Assembly: GCF_030269605.1 (NCBI RefSeq)
Contig: NZ_BSTQ01000009.1
Span: 186,001-250,000 of the forward strand
Direction of reading: 5' to 3'
Length of the DNA: 64,000 nt
DNA from: Lentzea sp. NBRC 105346
GTDB lineage: Bacteria; Actinomycetota; Actinomycetes; Mycobacteriales; Pseudonocardiaceae
Shown: in pieces, positions 7,908-13,893 of the stretch
Layout of the letters: each line of letters starts with the position of its first letter
Position numbering within the stretch: position 1 is the first letter of the stretch
Notes under the pieces: generated by a model
What the model was told of the DNA's origin: nothing
Databases searched by the model: none
What the model saw: the letters and a program-made list of their open reading frames with translations, nothing else
Translations under genes and position numbers: made by a program

Positions 7908-7912
7908 CGATG

Positions 7913-7957
7913 TACGCCGCCAGGGACTCGAACCCCGGACCCGCTGATTAAGAGTCC
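7913..7957 (-). other. tRNA-Lys(CTT) 3' fragment, putative attachment site
   Basis: Read on the minus strand, the sequence gives the anticodon loop CTCTTAA (anticodon CTT), the 3' side of the anticodon stem (TCAGC), a variable loop, a T arm with loop TTCGAGT, and the 3' acceptor strand. The 5' side of the anticodon stem breaks pairing after GGA, and no D arm or 5' acceptor follows. Only the 3' half of the gene remains, with its terminator. Such 3' halves are typical att sites left by tyrosine-integrase elements. No intact tRNA-Lys copy is present elsewhere in the window. Confidence 0.75.
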
Positions 7958-8894: not shown

Positions 8895-9611
8895 TTGCAT
8901 GTCTCTCGTGCGATGGTGGAGGAGCGGGTTGTGGCCACTCGGGATTACACACCTGCGACCAGGGCGGCGCTGACCGCGTTCAGTTCCGGGAAGTGCTACT
9001 GGCCGGGCTGCGGTGAACAGCTGCTTCGTTTGGTGAACGGCAAGTATCGGATGGCGCTCGACATCGCGCACATTCGCGCGCTGAACCCTGACGGTCCGCG
9101 CTACGACCCGGCGATGACCGACCAGGAACGGAATGACTTTCCGAATCTGATCTACCTGTGCCGTGTCCATCATCGTGTGGTCGATGAGGGCACCGGTGAG
9201 GCCTACCCGGTGGAACTGTTGCTCGACTGGAAGGCAGACAGGGAAACCGCGGGCCAACAGCGTTTGCACGCTCAGGCCCCGATCACGGTCGAAGTCTTCG
9301 AGACGGTGATCGCGGAGGCCATGGAACGCCGCGACGAGCAGATCAACGAGATCCTTGTCCGACTGGAACGAACAGACCTCGAAGCTGCTCAGTTGATGCG
9401 CGAGTTGCGGGAGGAGTTGGTTGAGATCCGCCGCAACGGAGCCGTCATCGACCCCGACACCGCCGCGATGCTCAGCCGCGCCGCAGCTCGGCTGGAGGGC
9501 CTGCCTGACAGCGCTGGAACGCTCGCCAAAGCAGCCACGAAGCTGGTCGGGCTTCCGGATCTCGTGGCTCGGCTCAACGCTGCGGCCAACCGGCTGGACG
9601 GGTTGAGGTAG
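8895..9611 (+). CDS. HNH endonuclease with C-terminal coiled coil
   Basis: 238 residues. The N-terminal half has a zinc-bound HNH core: CYWPGC, then DIAHIRAL, then FPNLIYLCRVHHRVVD, giving the paired Cys, the general-base His and the metal-binding His residues. After residue 130 it is a long Glu/Arg/Leu-rich helix (ERRDEQINEILVRLERTDLEAAQ) that should form a coiled coil, followed by repeats of an ARLEGLP/TKLVGLP type. TTG 8895 has GGGAGG 5 nt upstream; GTG 8931 has GGAGGAG 6 nt upstream and is an equal candidate. HNH proteins of this kind occur as defence effectors, but that role is inferred here. Confidence 0.8.
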   Translation: MHVSRAMVEERVVATRDYTPATRAALTAFSSGKCYWPGCGEQLLRLVNGKYRMALDIAHIRALNPDGPRYDPAMTDQERNDFPNLIYLCRVHHRVVDEGTGEAYPVELLLDWKADRETAGQQRLHAQAPITVEVFETVIAEAMERRDEQINEILVRLERTDLEAAQLMRELREELVEIRRNGAVIDPDTAAMLSRAAARLEGLPDSAGTLAKAATKLVGLPDLVARLNAAANRLDGLR

Positions 9612-9614
9612 AGG

Positions 9615-10172
9615 TCAGGACGAACGGCGGGTGATCTGCTTGGCAACGCCGGTGCTGTTGTAGCGGTAGCGTGCCATCTCCAGCGTGACCCGGTTTTCGG
9701 TCGCGATCGCGTCCGGTTTCAAGCCGCGCCTTGCCGCATCTAGGAGAAGCGCTCGCGGAAGGAGCAGCGTGCCGCCGAAGGCCGTTGCCTCTTCCTCCTC
9801 GTTCGGCTGGCACGTGCGGAACGGCACGTCGTCGAGTTCGCGGATCTCCGAAAGCTCATGCTTGAGCAGCAGGTGTGACAGTTCGTGCGCGATGTCGCTG
9901 AAGATCCTTCCCTCTGACCGCAGGGGGTTCGTGACCACGTAGGAGTTGCCGCGGACGTCAAAGGTCGCTGCGGAGAAGGAAAATGCTTGTAGTCGCTCCA
10001 ATTCCTCCAAACGCGCGCGGTCGACCAAGCGGTCGGCGCTGACCACCGCGACACCCATGTGCTCCGCCAGCTGGCGAACATCGAGAGGTGCAGCGGGGGA
10101 GATGCCCAGTTCTTTGCGGAGGCGGGTGGCTTCGCGTTCGGCGTTCGCCTTGAAGCCGCGGGGCAAGGTCAT
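9615..10172 (-). CDS. ImmA/IrrE family metallo-endopeptidase
   Basis: 185 residues. The zinc protease signature HELSH (HExxH) is in IFSDIAHELSHLLL near residue 95, with a downstream EEEEATAF segment giving the third ligand region. ImmA/IrrE peptidases cleave partner XRE repressors to derepress mobile elements or stress genes. The ATG overlaps the stop of the upstream XRE gene (ATGA), so the two are made together as a repressor-protease pair. Tail-to-tail with the HNH gene (3-bp gap). Confidence 0.85.
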   Translation of the reverse strand: MTLPRGFKANAEREATRLRKELGISPAAPLDVRQLAEHMGVAVVSADRLVDRARLEELERLQAFSFSAATFDVRGNSYVVTNPLRSEGRIFSDIAHELSHLLLKHELSEIRELDDVPFRTCQPNEEEEATAFGGTLLLPRALLLDAARRGLKPDAIATENRVTLEMARYRYNSTGVAKQITRRSS

Positions 10173-10702
10173 AGTTCGCCTGCCTCGACCTTTCGTTCCA
10201 GTGCTTCGTGCATGTCCTGAAGGAGAGAGGCGAGACGAGGCGCCACGCCTGGGCGCATTACCGGATCGGCTCTGAGGTGGCAGGCCACGATCGATTTCGG
10301 CGGGGCGATGTCGCGAGCGAGCGCACCGTAAAGGTCCTTGAGCACTGAGCTGATCTTCGCGGCGGCGTCCGCAGTCAGCCGAGGGTCCGCGCGCAGATGC
10401 GTGATCGCCTCGTCCAGAGGTGTGATCTCGCGCTCGACGACAGGGGTGAAGAAGCGCGAGGGGGAGACCCCCAGCCATGCGCAGAGGCGGGTGAAGGTGG
10501 CGAGGTCGGGATGAGCGCCCGCTTCGACTCGCGACAACGTGCTGAAACTGACGCCGGCCTCTTGGGCGGCTTGCCTGATCGACAGGTTGCCACGACGGTC
10601 GCGGAGCAGTTCGGCCAGCTGGGTCAGGTCCAGCCTCTCTGGCTGCTGCGTGGCCTCGTCGCGGTCCCTTGGTGGTTCGGCGGGATGGGACACGCCCGCC
10701 AT
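10169..10702 (-). CDS. XRE family transcriptional regulator
   Basis: 177 residues from the ATG at 10702. The helix-turn-helix is NLSIRQAAQEAGVSFSTLSR and continues VEAGAHPDLATF, a standard XRE/Cro fold near residues 35-90; the C-terminal helices are of unknown role. It is translationally coupled to the ImmA/IrrE gene and divergent from the Ubl operon across 118 bp that contain three copies of TGCAACA(G/C)T. It is the best candidate to control the Ubl operon, with the peptidase removing it on a signal. Upstream in-frame codons look non-coding. Confidence 0.85.
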   Translation of the reverse strand: MAGVSHPAEPPRDRDEATQQPERLDLTQLAELLRDRRGNLSIRQAAQEAGVSFSTLSRVEAGAHPDLATFTRLCAWLGVSPSRFFTPVVEREITPLDEAITHLRADPRLTADAAAKISSVLKDLYGALARDIAPPKSIVACHLRADPVMRPGVAPRLASLLQDMHEALERKVEAGEL

Positions 10703-10727
10703 CGTAGGACGAGCGATGACACTTGCG

Positions 10728-10781
10728 TGCAACAGTCCGCGATGCAACACTGATGGCGTAGTGACGCTTTGCTGCAACAGT
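10728..10781. promoter_or_regulatory. Three phased TGCAACA(G/C)T boxes in the XRE/Ubl divergent region
   Basis: TGCAACAGT occurs at 10728-10736, TGCAACACT at 10743-10751 and TGCAACAGT at 10773-10781, with start-to-start distances of 15 and 30 bp. All are in the same orientation, between the XRE start (10702) and the Ubl start (10821). Repeated boxes of this size fit an operator array for the adjacent XRE protein; binding is inferred. Confidence 0.6.
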
Positions 10782-10820
10782 GTGAATGCCTCGCTCCCCC
10801 GAGGCAGGAAGGAGCTCGCT

Positions 10821-11087
10821 ATGACGGGCCAGCCGAAGGACATCACGGTCACCGTCACGTTCGCCACGGCGCCGAAGCCGTTCCGCGAGGACTTCGAACC
10901 GCGGACTCAGCTCAGCGTGGTGCTCGACGCAGCGCTGAAGGAGTTCGGCATCACGGCCGACGGCACCACCCGCTACTACCTGCTGCACAAGGACGACGAG
11001 CCAGCGTTGACCGTCACGCTGGCCGACCTCGCTGGCCACGCGCATGCAGTGCACCTGCGCTTGCGCACCGAGACGACCCAGGGCTGA
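10821..11087 (+). CDS. Ubiquitin-like protein with C-terminal glycine
   Basis: 88 residues with AGGAAGGAG 6 nt before the ATG. The pattern is a beta-grasp: two initial strands (DITVTVTFATAPKPF), a helix (QLSVVLDAALKEFGI), YYLLHKDDE, TLADL and a final strand AVHLRLR. The last residues TETTQG leave a free Gly after an LRLR stretch, comparable to LRLRGG in ubiquitin. This suggests it is conjugation-competent without trimming. It is a single Ubl domain, unlike the tandem-Ubl BilA or multi-ubiquitin proteins. The next genes encode E2, JAB and E1 homologues, which strongly supports the call. Confidence 0.85.
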   Translation: MTGQPKDITVTVTFATAPKPFREDFEPRTQLSVVLDAALKEFGITADGTTRYYLLHKDDEPALTVTLADLAGHAHAVHLRLRTETTQG

Positions 11088-11107
11088 AGCAAGATCAGGC
11101 CCGGCTC

Positions 11108-11545
11108 GTGGACCTCGAAAGCCGCCTGCGGCTTGAGCGGCATGTGCCTGAGGTCGAGGAGTTCCTCGCCTCGACCTCAGGGCGTCTCGTACATCGTCCC
11201 GAAGACGAGGACGGCGCCTACTGGATCATGATGCAGGCGCGCGGCCAGAGTGGAGAGCCCTTCATCGCCCGCCTCGTGTGGACCGTTTATCCGCTACGCC
11301 CGCCATCCCTGCTGTTCGCCGACTCCGTCGGCGGAGCCACGAACCGGCCGGCCTCGTGGCCATCCGCAGCTGGCTACCGCGCGCCCAACGACGTGTGCAA
11401 ACCGTTCACCGCGGAAGGGCAGGCTCTTCATCCGGAGTGGGCCACCGGCCCACACGCGTGGCGCGCCTCCGGCAACCCCTTCCTCTATGTCGTCGAGACC
11501 GTGCAGGGCGACATCGACCGAGCGAACGGACAGCGAGCCGCATGA
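11108..11545 (+). CDS. Prokaryotic E2-like ubiquitin-conjugating protein
   Basis: About 145 residues. An N-terminal helix (residues 1-25) and strands lead to VWTVYPLRPPSLLFAD (residues 57-72), which matches the YPxxPPxxxF flap of UBC folds. RAPNDVCKPF then gives a single candidate active Cys at 97 and is followed by W/H-rich sequence and a C-terminal helix. No HPN tripeptide precedes the Cys, as in other bacterial E2 families. GTG 11108 is the first usual start; a CTG overlapping the Ubl stop (CTGA, 11084) is possible. Its stop overlaps the JAB start (ATGA). Confidence 0.8.
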   Translation: MDLESRLRLERHVPEVEEFLASTSGRLVHRPEDEDGAYWIMMQARGQSGEPFIARLVWTVYPLRPPSLLFADSVGGATNRPASWPSAAGYRAPNDVCKPFTAEGQALHPEWATGPHAWRASGNPFLYVVETVQGDIDRANGQRAA

Positions 11546-12036
11546 CTGAAGACCAGCTGGTGATCTCGACCAACTCAGTGGAGAGCCTCATCAAGGCGGT
11601 GCGACGTCACGGTCTTGCGTGGGAGGAAACTGGAGCGCTGCTCCTGACCACTCCAGAGAAGTGGGACGTCGTCGCGGTCGCGCTTGCCGGTGACGACGGC
11701 ATCCAGCGGGGAAAGGGACTCTTCGTCATCACCCTTCCTGCGTTTGACGCGTTGTTCACCTACGCAGAGGAACAGGATCTGCAGGTCCGGGCAATGGTGC
11801 ACTCGCACCCGTATGAAGCGTTCCTTTCGCCGGTCGACCGTCAGCACGGCCTTCGCGTCCGCGGTTTCATCAGCGCGGTCATCCCGACCTACGGCGACCC
11901 GCCTGTCGACCCGAGTGACTGGGGCTGGTGGCGTTTCGAAGACGACTGGCACCCCACCCAGCCCGCGATCATGGTCGAGCACGGCCCGGTCGCGAAGGTG
12001 TTCACCTTCGACTCCGGAGGGCTCCATGACGACTGA
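11542..12036 (+). CDS. JAB/JAMM-domain peptidase
   Basis: 164 residues. The JAMM motif is complete: Glu in WEETGALLL (29/30), and HSHPYEAFLSPVD giving H87, H89, S96 and D99. It should be a zinc isopeptidase acting on the Ubl or its conjugates, and a deconjugation role is likely because the Ubl already ends in Gly. Its start overlaps the E2 stop (ATGA) and its 3' end overlaps the E1 start by 11 bp. It could also process a precursor or trim targets. Confidence 0.88.
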   Translation: MTEDQLVISTNSVESLIKAVRRHGLAWEETGALLLTTPEKWDVVAVALAGDDGIQRGKGLFVITLPAFDALFTYAEEQDLQVRAMVHSHPYEAFLSPVDRQHGLRVRGFISAVIPTYGDPPVDPSDWGWWRFEDDWHPTQPAIMVEHGPVAKVFTFDSGGLHDD

Positions 12037-13528
12037 CTACAGCCGGGGCCTGCTGTTGGCCAGCGCGGCCGCCGGAGTCGACGAAGCTGGACTTCGCCAT
12101 CGCCTCGAAAACACACGCGTGCACGTCTCGGCCGAACTCGATATAGCAGGAGTGGTCCTAGCGTTGACGGTGCTCGTCACCAACCTCCGGCGGCTACCGC
12201 TGGACCTTGGCCTGGAAGTGATTGGGAGCGACCCCGATTCGCCTCGCGGCCTTCTCGATCACATCCTTGAGCTCGCAGTCGGGATCGACGCCGACCGCAA
12301 CGTCACGCTCTCGAGGCGTCGCGCGGGTGCTGTTCTGCACGTGCATCTCGGCACCAGCCCGCCGGACGGCGTCCTCGTGAGCGCGGTGCCGGATGGACAC
12401 GGCGTACGGCTTCGGTATCCCGGAAATCCTTACCCCGCCCTGCGGGCGCCGGGCTCGGGGCTCGGGGCGGTGCTGACCGCCGCCGTTCTCACTGGGGAGG
12501 TTTTCAAGCACGCCACAGGCCTCCGCCCTGAAGCGATGCGCGTGCGACAGACGCTGGACTTCTGTCCGGTCACCCTCACCGAGGACCCTGGCGTCGTAAC
12601 CGAGACGCCGATGATCTTCACTGATACGGCGCTTGTAGGCGGTGGTGCCATCGGCACCGCCATCTCTCTGATCTTGCGCGAGTTGCCCTCGGCGGGCCGA
12701 CTTGTGGTGGTCGATCCACAGACCTTCGAGGAACCAAATGTCACGACCTACAGTCTGGGCAACGTCCAGGACGCACAGAACGGCTTGCGCAAGATCGACT
12801 TGATCAAGCGCGAACTTCACGGATTCGACGTGACCACCATCTACGGGACCGCCCAGGACCTTCTGGAAAAGATCGACCGCGGGAACGTGTGGTGGCCGAA
12901 GGTCGTGCTGGGCGCGGTCGACAGCATCTCCGCTCGACACGAGCTGCAACGTGTATATGCAGACCTCACCTTGGACGGAAGTACGGGAGGACACGTCGGA
13001 ACCACCCTCGCGCTCCGCGAAGGCCTGCCTACCGGGCCGTGCTTGAGGTGCTACTACCCGCTGCGCGATGCCCAGGCGGGCCCGAGCGCCGAGCAGCTAC
13101 TGCATCAAAGCACGGGCCTGGCCATGAACCGAATTGCCCGCGGACAGCTCCCGTTGAGCGAGCGAGACCTGGATGGCCTGTCCGAAACGGGCAAACGCAT
13201 CCTCGCGCCACATGTCGGCAAGCCGGTATGTGGCCTGGCGTCGCTGCTCGGGTTGGTGCCGGACAGTCGCGACGACTACCGCCCCTCAGCGGCGTTCGTC
13301 GCCCAGCAAGCGGCTGCCCTCGTCGTAGGGGCGTTGATTGCCCGCCAAACCGGAACGCTCACTGGAGCGGTGCGAGACGTTGAGTACGACGCCCTGTATG
13401 GCCCGTACCTCCACATGATCGCAAGTCGTCGGCCGCGGCCTGCGTGTGCTTGTGCGTCGAACAAGGATCTGATCGAGCAAGTTAGGGAGGTGCGCTCCAG
13501 CCTTATCCCGCGCCGTGGCCGGTGTTGA
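12026..13528 (+). CDS. E1-like ThiF-family adenylyltransferase
   Basis: 500 residues. The first 190 form an N-terminal domain without recognised motifs. A Rossmann ThiF domain follows: TALVGGGAIGTAISLIL (glycine loop 205-210), VVVDPQTFEEPNVTTYSLG (Asp 230), a GLRKIDLIKREL helix in place of the usual RQ segment, and GAVDSISARHELQ. Candidate zinc ligands are CLRC (339, 342) and CAC (474, 476); C402 in KPVCGLASLLG is a candidate thioester Cys. It should adenylate the Ubl C-terminal Gly with ATP and pass it to the E2. It overlaps the JAB gene upstream and the small gene downstream. Confidence 0.88.
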   Translation: MTTDYSRGLLLASAAAGVDEAGLRHRLENTRVHVSAELDIAGVVLALTVLVTNLRRLPLDLGLEVIGSDPDSPRGLLDHILELAVGIDADRNVTLSRRRAGAVLHVHLGTSPPDGVLVSAVPDGHGVRLRYPGNPYPALRAPGSGLGAVLTAAVLTGEVFKHATGLRPEAMRVRQTLDFCPVTLTEDPGVVTETPMIFTDTALVGGGAIGTAISLILRELPSAGRLVVVDPQTFEEPNVTTYSLGNVQDAQNGLRKIDLIKRELHGFDVTTIYGTAQDLLEKIDRGNVWWPKVVLGAVDSISARHELQRVYADLTLDGSTGGHVGTTLALREGLPTGPCLRCYYPLRDAQAGPSAEQLLHQSTGLAMNRIARGQLPLSERDLDGLSETGKRILAPHVGKPVCGLASLLGLVPDSRDDYRPSAAFVAQQAAALVVGALIARQTGTLTGAVRDVEYDALYGPYLHMIASRRPRPACACASNKDLIEQVREVRSSLIPRRGRC

Positions 13529-13893
13529 CCGCGGTTTCGACCTGCTCGCCTGCGTGTCGGCTGAAGTCTGAACTGCTCGCGGTGGTGCCCTGTTCTGAAG
13601 TTCCAACTCATGCGTTCGCCCTGCTCGTCGCGGAGATCACCACCGTCGAGAACGAGATGGTCAAGCGCTTGCCTAAGCACGCGGACGCTGAGATCTATCA
13701 CCCGGCGTGGTACGACACCGAGCGCGCCAGGAAGGCAGTGGACGAGACGCTGGCACTGACACCGGCAGGCGACGAGCTGTTGAGCGGTCTGTTCATCGAA
13801 CTATCGGCTCTTCGACTTGAAGGCATCCTGGAGTGCCGAGCGAGCGACCGCCACGGACTAACGCAGACCAGCGAGCGCGCAACCCATCCCTGA
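13522..13893 (+). CDS. Small protein of unknown function at the end of the Ubl operon
   Basis: Up to 123 residues from GTG 13522 (TTG 13525 also possible), overlapping the E1 stop. The middle part is charged and helical (FALLVAEITTVENEMVKRL, then AEIYHPAWYDTERARKAV, then LLSGLFIELSALRLEGILE). No known domain is recognised. Coupling to E1 suggests it belongs to the pathway, for example as a target adaptor or an immunity or regulatory partner. The N-terminal 25 residues are Cys/Ser-rich and may not be translated. Confidence 0.55.
   Translation: MLTAVSTCSPACRLKSELLAVVPCSEVPTHAFALLVAEITTVENEMVKRLPKHADAEIYHPAWYDTERARKAVDETLALTPAGDELLSGLFIELSALRLEGILECRASDRHGLTQTSERATHP

Follow-up and report, generated by a model that had tools for sequence, protein, structure and literature searches.

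Bub and type II CBASS (cyclic oligonucleotide-based antiphage signaling system) operons have in common the logic of a ubiquitin-like protein (Ubl), E1 and E2 enzymes and a JAB peptidase; Bub has a fused BubCD, and type II CBASS an E1-E2 fusion beside a CD-NTase (cGAS/DncV-like nucleotidyltransferase). For Bil systems, phage structural proteins have been reported as targets. Bacterial operons of Ubl, E2, JAB and E1 genes were described in 2006 (PMC1779556). PMC11354881 gives BilABCD as Ubl, E2, deubiquitinase and E1, with BilA being a two-Ubl protein that is processed by BilC. According to PMC13373217, CapW or CapH+CapP controllers accompany 219 of 544 Bub operons, while five Bil operons have CapK+CapS. 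The cassette described here has the gene order Ubl-E2-JAB-E1 and lies in a window of 64,000 nt from Lentzea sp. NBRC 105346 (NZ_BSTQ01000009.1, positions 186,001-250,000 of the forward strand), to which all coordinates refer. It spans positions 10821-13528 (+), and a pair of XRE and ImmA/IrrE genes lies divergently at 9615-10702 (-).

We read the cassette, with good though incomplete confidence, as a Bil-type single-Ubl conjugation system under local, inducible CapH/CapP-like repression, probably with an antiviral role. The Bil-type kind and the order Ubl-E2-JAB-E1 are known; the actinobacterial clade and its control are what sets it apart. Bil-type Ubl conjugation would thereby be extended to a compact clade of actinobacteria, whose putative operator of two boxes is open to testing.

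Predicted conjugation enzymes of the cassette

The preliminary description of this DNA had named a single-domain Ubl, a UBC-fold protein, a JAB/JAMM peptidase, a ThiF-type E1 with zinc-ligand candidates and a divergent, coupled XRE/ImmA pair, and every gene that it named is an open frame with the coordinates given there. The overlaps of a few bases that it described from the E2 onward were measured at 4 bp (E2/JAB), 11 bp (JAB/E1) and 7 bp (E1/fifth open reading frame, ORF5). Its option of a 20-bp gap between the Ubl and E2 genes is backed by the GTG start at 11108 (VDLESRLRLER), as the frames of relatives begin with MDLES or MDFES. The profile and structure searches that it had proposed returned Bil enzymes as the best solved relatives: the JAB is closest to BilC and the E1 to BilD, and the E2 resembles BilB by fold.

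The JAB/JAMM peptidase (11542..12036, +; 164 aa) matched BilC of PADLOC (3.7e-14). The best PDB match of its profile was BilC 8tyx_B (7.9e-23), while a 458-aa chain named BubCD in the PDB reached only 0.031. The JAMM residues E29, H87, H89, S96 and D99 were invariant in 18 of 18 sequences, as was S88. The Pfam Prok-JAB model gave 0.002, which is under its cut-off. The BilD-like E1 (12026..13528, +; 500 aa) matched Pfam ThiF (3.5e-7) and BilD of PADLOC (3.6e-10), and the best PDB match of its profile was BilD 8tyz_A (4.5e-31, columns 15-490). The glycines of the GxGxxG motif (G205, G207, G210) and the cysteines C339, C342, C402, C474 and C476 were invariant in all 19 sequences. The zinc-type cysteines C339, C342, C474 and C476 align with cysteines in the solved BilD; two rows of PADLOC-type BilD lack counterparts. 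C402 aligns with a cysteine in these two rows and is likely the catalytic residue of the E1.

The Ubl gene (10821..11087, +) encodes a BilA-like protein of 88 aa with a single beta-grasp domain, as modeled with AF2 (mean predicted local distance difference test score, 85.9) and assigned with Foldseek. Its C-terminus reads LRLRTETTQG and ends in a free Gly (TETTQG) after LRLR, as had been noted. The PADLOC BilA model matched this protein (2.3e-7) at positions 77-154 of 162 only, which correspond to the second BilA domain. The Pfam Ubl model gave 0.016, under the model cut-off, and the Ubl profile had no match in the PDB by sequence. Membership in the two-Ubl (ISG15-like) Bil subtype was rejected on account of the 88-aa length, the one beta-grasp domain and the restricted BilA match. 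The E2 or UBC-fold protein (11108..11545, +; 145 aa) is BilB-like and has a sole cysteine, C97, which all 19 sequences of the alignment share, as they do E103, H108 and W111. Its best structural match was BilB of the solved Bil structures (8tyx/8tyz/8tz0), and the Pfam scan gave no match for it.

The window has four adjacent genes in the order Ubl-E2-JAB-E1, a BilD-type E1 and a BilC-type JAB, as Bil does. The solved Bil proteins provided the top sequence matches of the JAB and the E1 and the top structural match of the E2, and the four zinc-type cysteines of the E1 are shared with them; in the part seen, numbered 16-96, the solved Ubl chain shows one domain. They differ in that the window Ubl has no sequence match to them, the E2 matches weakly and the branch of 8tyz in the E1 tree is very long. 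In addition, the window Ubl ends in Gly already, while BilA is described in PMC11354881 as being cleaved first by BilC. With the Bil type of the PADLOC models, which has a two-Ubl, ISG15-like BilA (L050 and L051), the window shares the gene order seen in L050 and the match to the second BilA domain. It has one Ubl domain instead of two, and its E1 matched the BilD model far more weakly than that of L050 (5.2e-159). Unlike in Bub, the JAB, E1 and E2 are separate genes. The separate E1 and E2 also distinguish the cassette from type II CBASS, and no cyclase or CD-NTase match was obtained among eight window proteins scanned.

Relatives and distribution

In the whole-genome protein searches a few top candidates were scored for each genome (3 to 5 in the rows considered), and prevalences are lower bounds. 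The E1 search gave at least 1 of 297 genomes of the same family (only the own genome, among the candidates scored) and at least 3 of 394 genomes of the same class, the own one included. Three E1 relatives were present in plasmid records, from Janibacter, Deinococcus and a haloarchaeon. A contig scan with a five-row E1 profile gave 20 loci. Together with the window, L004, L005 and L053, this made a set of 24 distinct loci, of which 13 are actinobacterial (the window, L004 and L008-L018) and 11 are not (L005, L019-L027 and L053). L006 and L015 are the same place, as are L007 and L018; L050, L051 (both two-Ubl), L052, L054 and L055 stand outside the set.

Of the 13 actinobacterial loci, 12 have the four genes side by side, as do L005 and L019-L026; in L016 the E1 frame is cut short. 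The Ubls of L005, L019, L021-L023, L025 and L026 were identified by position and alignment and not by seed search. Only the E1 was detected in L027. In the E1 tree, which was calculated without the broken E1 of L016 and without duplicate loci, the 12 actinobacterial rows formed one clade (100/99), within which L004 and L015 were paired (100/99); 8tyz and L050 had very long branches, and their placement is unsure. The cassette belongs to a sporadic actinobacterial clade of 13 loci. Of the distinct subtype suggested in the preliminary description the regulator remains distinctive, and so does the actinobacterial clade. The other traits named do not support it, as the gene order also occurs in L050, the solved Bil Ubl chains show one domain in the part seen and the extra ORF is not conserved.

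Seven of 12 actinobacterial Ubls (window, L008-L013) end in Gly, while five (L004, L014, L015, L016, L018) have one or two residues past it. Among the non-actinobacterial Ubls (L005, L019-L026, L053), 9 of 10 end in Gly and that of L020 is one residue longer. The JAB gene is retained also where the Ubl already ends in Gly; as the peptidase is kept where maturation is not needed, deconjugation is likely its common task. These loci would represent natural cases of a JAB peptidase kept although its Ubl needs no maturation.

Several single observations were made on the relatives. In L017 (9205-11482, Streptomyces sp. SPB162), the E1 and most of the JAB were kept and the Ubl, E2 and regulators were not found; this is probably a decaying copy. 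In L025 (1165-2939), a second JAB-ThiF fusion gene, preceded by a small E2-like gene (by eye), was located immediately upstream of the Bil-type operon. L052 (2330-3601), from a Ramlibacter metagenome-assembled genome (MAG), carried a PADLOC-type BilD (E 2.2e-135) with an in-frame TAG, and L054 had a match to the BilD model in a different gene order. Pieces of a second BilD-like E1 (best 8.8e-27) were present at L055 (G690:C7 82467-83147) in the Micromonospora tarensis genome that also holds L014.

The divergent candidate controller and its putative operator

The XRE-family putative repressor (10169..10702, -; 177 aa) matched the helix-turn-helix family HTH_31 of Pfam (1.3e-10) and the PADLOC models capH (5.8e-5) and RmrA (1.7e-5). 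The ImmA/IrrE metallopeptidase (9615..10172, -; 185 aa) has a HELSH motif and matched Pfam Peptidase_M78 (3.1e-13), RmrA (1.5e-12) and capP (1.8e-11); its search against the PDB gave no match. The two genes overlap by 4 bp and are conserved together with the cassette, which agrees with the coupled pair described before. As in the CapH+CapP controllers of CBASS, Bub and other operons, an XRE gene overlaps an M78 gene at the operon promoter. The peptidase is, however, short and was aligned to capP at model positions 4-132 of 242 only. Since the C-terminal part of the model is unmatched, it was classed by sequence as CapP-like and not as CapP proper. Because this part is missing and RmrA scores slightly higher, a single-stranded DNA (ssDNA) signal is put forward by analogy only. 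As PMC13373217 reports such controllers on Bub and Bil operons, control of the XRE+ImmA type was to be expected. A literature search by titles and abstracts returned nothing on XRE+ImmA control of Bil, but most subscription papers were outside this search and absence is unproven.

Of the 13 loci from actinobacteria, 10 (window, L008-L014, L016, L018) have XRE and ImmA genes divergent from the Ubl gene, and this conservation spans Streptomyces, a Frankiaceae MAG and the window genome. Seven further loci have an XRE of the same family as the window, while L014 and L016 have a different XRE/ImmA pair. In L004 (a Janibacter plasmid) and L015 (Nocardioides), XRE and ImmA are replaced by a gene with a DUF4325 match (7.7e-8 in L015) and one for a kinase-like protein with GHKL motifs (by eye); the kinase-like (CapK-like) protein of Nocardioides had no Pfam or PDB match. 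The control region of L017 is lost. As L004 and L015 pair within one actinobacterial E1 clade, a single replacement of XRE+ImmA by a CapK/CapS-like pair is the simplest account, and two unrelated damage-type controllers may swap in front of the same cassette. The likeness to CapK+CapS is confined to these two loci and does not extend to the window; there the two genes point away from the operon, while the pairs described in PMC13373217 lie ahead of it.

Two copies of an 18-bp direct repeat lie between the divergent genes: box 1, TGACACTTGCGTGCAACA, at 10717..10734 (+), and box 2, TGACGCTTTGCTGCAACA, 45 bp on at 10762..10779 (+). The best 18-mer direct repeat of the divergent region was the same pair of elements, spaced by 43-50 bp, in all 8 loci that have an XRE of this family (window, L008-L013, L018), five of them near-identical Streptomyces loci. 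The repeat value was reached in 3, 8, 17, 24, 1, 0, 16 and 4 of 200 shuffles at the respective loci, which is weak for single loci. In L014 and L016, which have the other XRE, the best repeat pair had a different sequence. A search of the 9.39-Mb genome with one mismatch allowed gave no site beyond the two boxes; the pattern was built from both, and the informative result is that nothing else matches. Box 1 of the Streptomyces loci includes a TTGACT hexamer (by eye), which would fit a repressor that blocks RNA polymerase. The duplicated 18-bp box in the divergent promoter is a probable operator.

An M78 gene also adjoins the operon in at least 8 of the 11 non-actinobacterial loci, giving at least 18 of 24 loci in total; loci within a clade are not independent. 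The base rate, taken from the window genome alone, is 4 M78 genes in 9.39 Mb. The M78 domain is fused to an XRE domain in L005, L021, L026 and L053, and it is encoded beside a separate XRE gene in L022 (weak helix-turn-helix match) and L023. In L019 and L020 the neighbor is a sigma-factor-like gene, with a match above the Pfam cut-off in the former and just below it in the latter. No M78 gene was seen at L024, L025 and L027 in a seed search with the window ImmA and one XRE-ImmA protein, but this is not firm, as the upstream genes of L024 and L027 were outside the Pfam scan and the same seeds missed M78 genes found later by Pfam in L019, L020, L022 and L026. We tentatively suggest, without regarding it as the likelier case, that single-Ubl Bil cassettes as a lineage may be damage-inducible units, which would have an ImmA/IrrE protease across phyla with an exchangeable DNA-binding partner and sometimes a CapK/CapS-like pair instead. 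The partners encountered were a separate XRE, a fused XRE, a PIN-like gene with a fused XRE, and a sigma-factor-like gene in two acidobacterial MAGs. If this were true, a proteolytic switch would be nearly obligatory for bacterial Ubl conjugation of the single-Ubl Bil type, and a protease-controlled sigma factor might be a further, perhaps undescribed, on-switch for such systems.

Two arrangements next to the operons are recorded separately. L019 (620-2566) and L020 (6159-8092), from acidobacterial MAGs, have the ImmA gene together with the sigma-factor-like gene and a gene of 180-200 aa, instead of XRE. A gene resembling PIN nucleases (by eye) accompanies the XRE-ImmA fusion in L021 (6436-8036) and L053 (2350-3909), divergent from the single-Ubl operon; the PIN-like gene of L053 had no Pfam match.

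Proposed function, alternatives and neighborhood

Homology, folds, the conservation of catalytic residues and of the boxes, the order of the genes and their association with a regulator are observations; the chemistry, targets, antiviral role and control set out next are inferred. The E1 would adenylate the C-terminal Gly of the Ubl, load the Ubl onto a cysteine (C402 being the candidate) and hand it to C97 of the E2. The E2 would attach it to lysines of target proteins, the cassette having no E3 gene, and the targets would probably be phage structural proteins, following the Bil precedent. The JAB would strip the tag from the targets; in relatives with a Ubl longer by 1-2 residues it would also have to mature the Ubl, a step not needed in the window. 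In a quiet cell the XRE protein would occupy both boxes between the divergent genes. Upon a stress signal, most likely ssDNA or DNA damage by analogy with CapH/CapP, ImmA would cleave the repressor and the operon would be expressed.

Several results weigh against this interpretation. The E2 matched BilB only weakly by sequence (E 0.28), had no Foldseek match at E <= 0.001 and was not recognized in the PADLOC scan. C402 and Cys417 of 8tyz, which PMC11354881 names as the residue reacting with BilA, were unaligned in both alignments, C402 being about nine residues ahead in the profile alignment. The capP alignment is confined, with a slightly better score for RmrA. The JAB search of phage records and the E1 profile search of viral contigs gave no match, and carriage by phages or viruses was rejected on this basis. 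Finally, the sample of defense neighbors was hand-picked from 6 loci, and two of its matches are possibly generic.

This sample comprised nine proteins from six loci, chosen by eye, plus ORF5, and was scanned with PADLOC. L014 is accompanied by type I restriction genes (2.3e-189 for the methyltransferase, 1.6e-46 for the specificity and 5.1e-40 for the restriction protein), L011 by an RmrA gene (2.9e-153) and L012 by a type II-like methyltransferase (4.2e-60). The matches at L008 (helicase-like, 1.1e-35) and L015 (AAA, 2e-17) may be generic, and a large neighbor gene of L010 had no PADLOC match. With these two included, 5 of the 6 loci have restriction-type or RmrA matches next to them. Together with the sporadic and partly plasmid-borne distribution, this argues against the view that Ubl conjugation answers DNA damage as part of general stress or protein-quality control and not as an antiviral defense. 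The controller class does sense DNA damage and not phage as such, and no phage target is named by the sequence itself. PMC13373217 states that antiviral activity has not been demonstrated for Bub operons with such controllers, which may be stress responses, but it calls Bil, the closest characterized relatives, immune pathways. On balance a pure stress response appears rather unlikely.

Pairs of XRE and ImmA genes are common in integrative elements, and a DUF2637-like gene (by eye) and a 3' fragment of tRNA-Lys lie close by. The pair could hence be an independent regulator of a mobile element that adjoins the cassette by chance. This is very improbable given that the divergent pair is conserved from Streptomyces and the Frankiaceae MAG to the window genome and that the boxes sit between both gene sets and nowhere else in the genome. 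Least credible of all is a ThiF/ThiS-type sulfur-carrier or biosynthetic system without protein conjugation, as the E1, a member of the ThiF family, is adjoined in four-gene loci by a UBC-fold E2 with an invariant cysteine and a JAMM peptidase, aligns to BilD over nearly its full length and reached 23.4 bits with the ThiF equivalog model, whose cut-off is 275 bits.

Two genes next to the antiviral candidate were rejected as its components. ORF5 (13522..13893, +), counted as a fifth small protein of the cassette in the preliminary description, is an open frame, but it had no relative in the 24 loci L004-L027, matched nothing but itself when 60 genomes of the family, 59 of them others, were searched, and had no PADLOC match. 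The HNH nuclease gene (8895-9611) matched PDC-M68A of PADLOC (7.7e-30) and 'Effector, Endonuclease' models (1.1e-22) and had no relative in loci L004-L027.

The region from about 7.5 to 14 kb of the window has a G+C content of 0.63-0.67, compared with 0.68-0.70 on the left; the contrast is clear on this side only, because the right side stays near 0.66 up to 16 kb. The 3' fragment comes from a tRNA-Lys(CTT) gene and occupies about 7912-7956; about 75 kb to the right, the same contig has an intact copy in the same orientation. This suggests a mobile origin of the region, with unsettled boundaries, and the copies seen are not explained by a simple single insertion. In genome G238, an intact tRNA-Lys lies about 10 kb from the syntenic flank.

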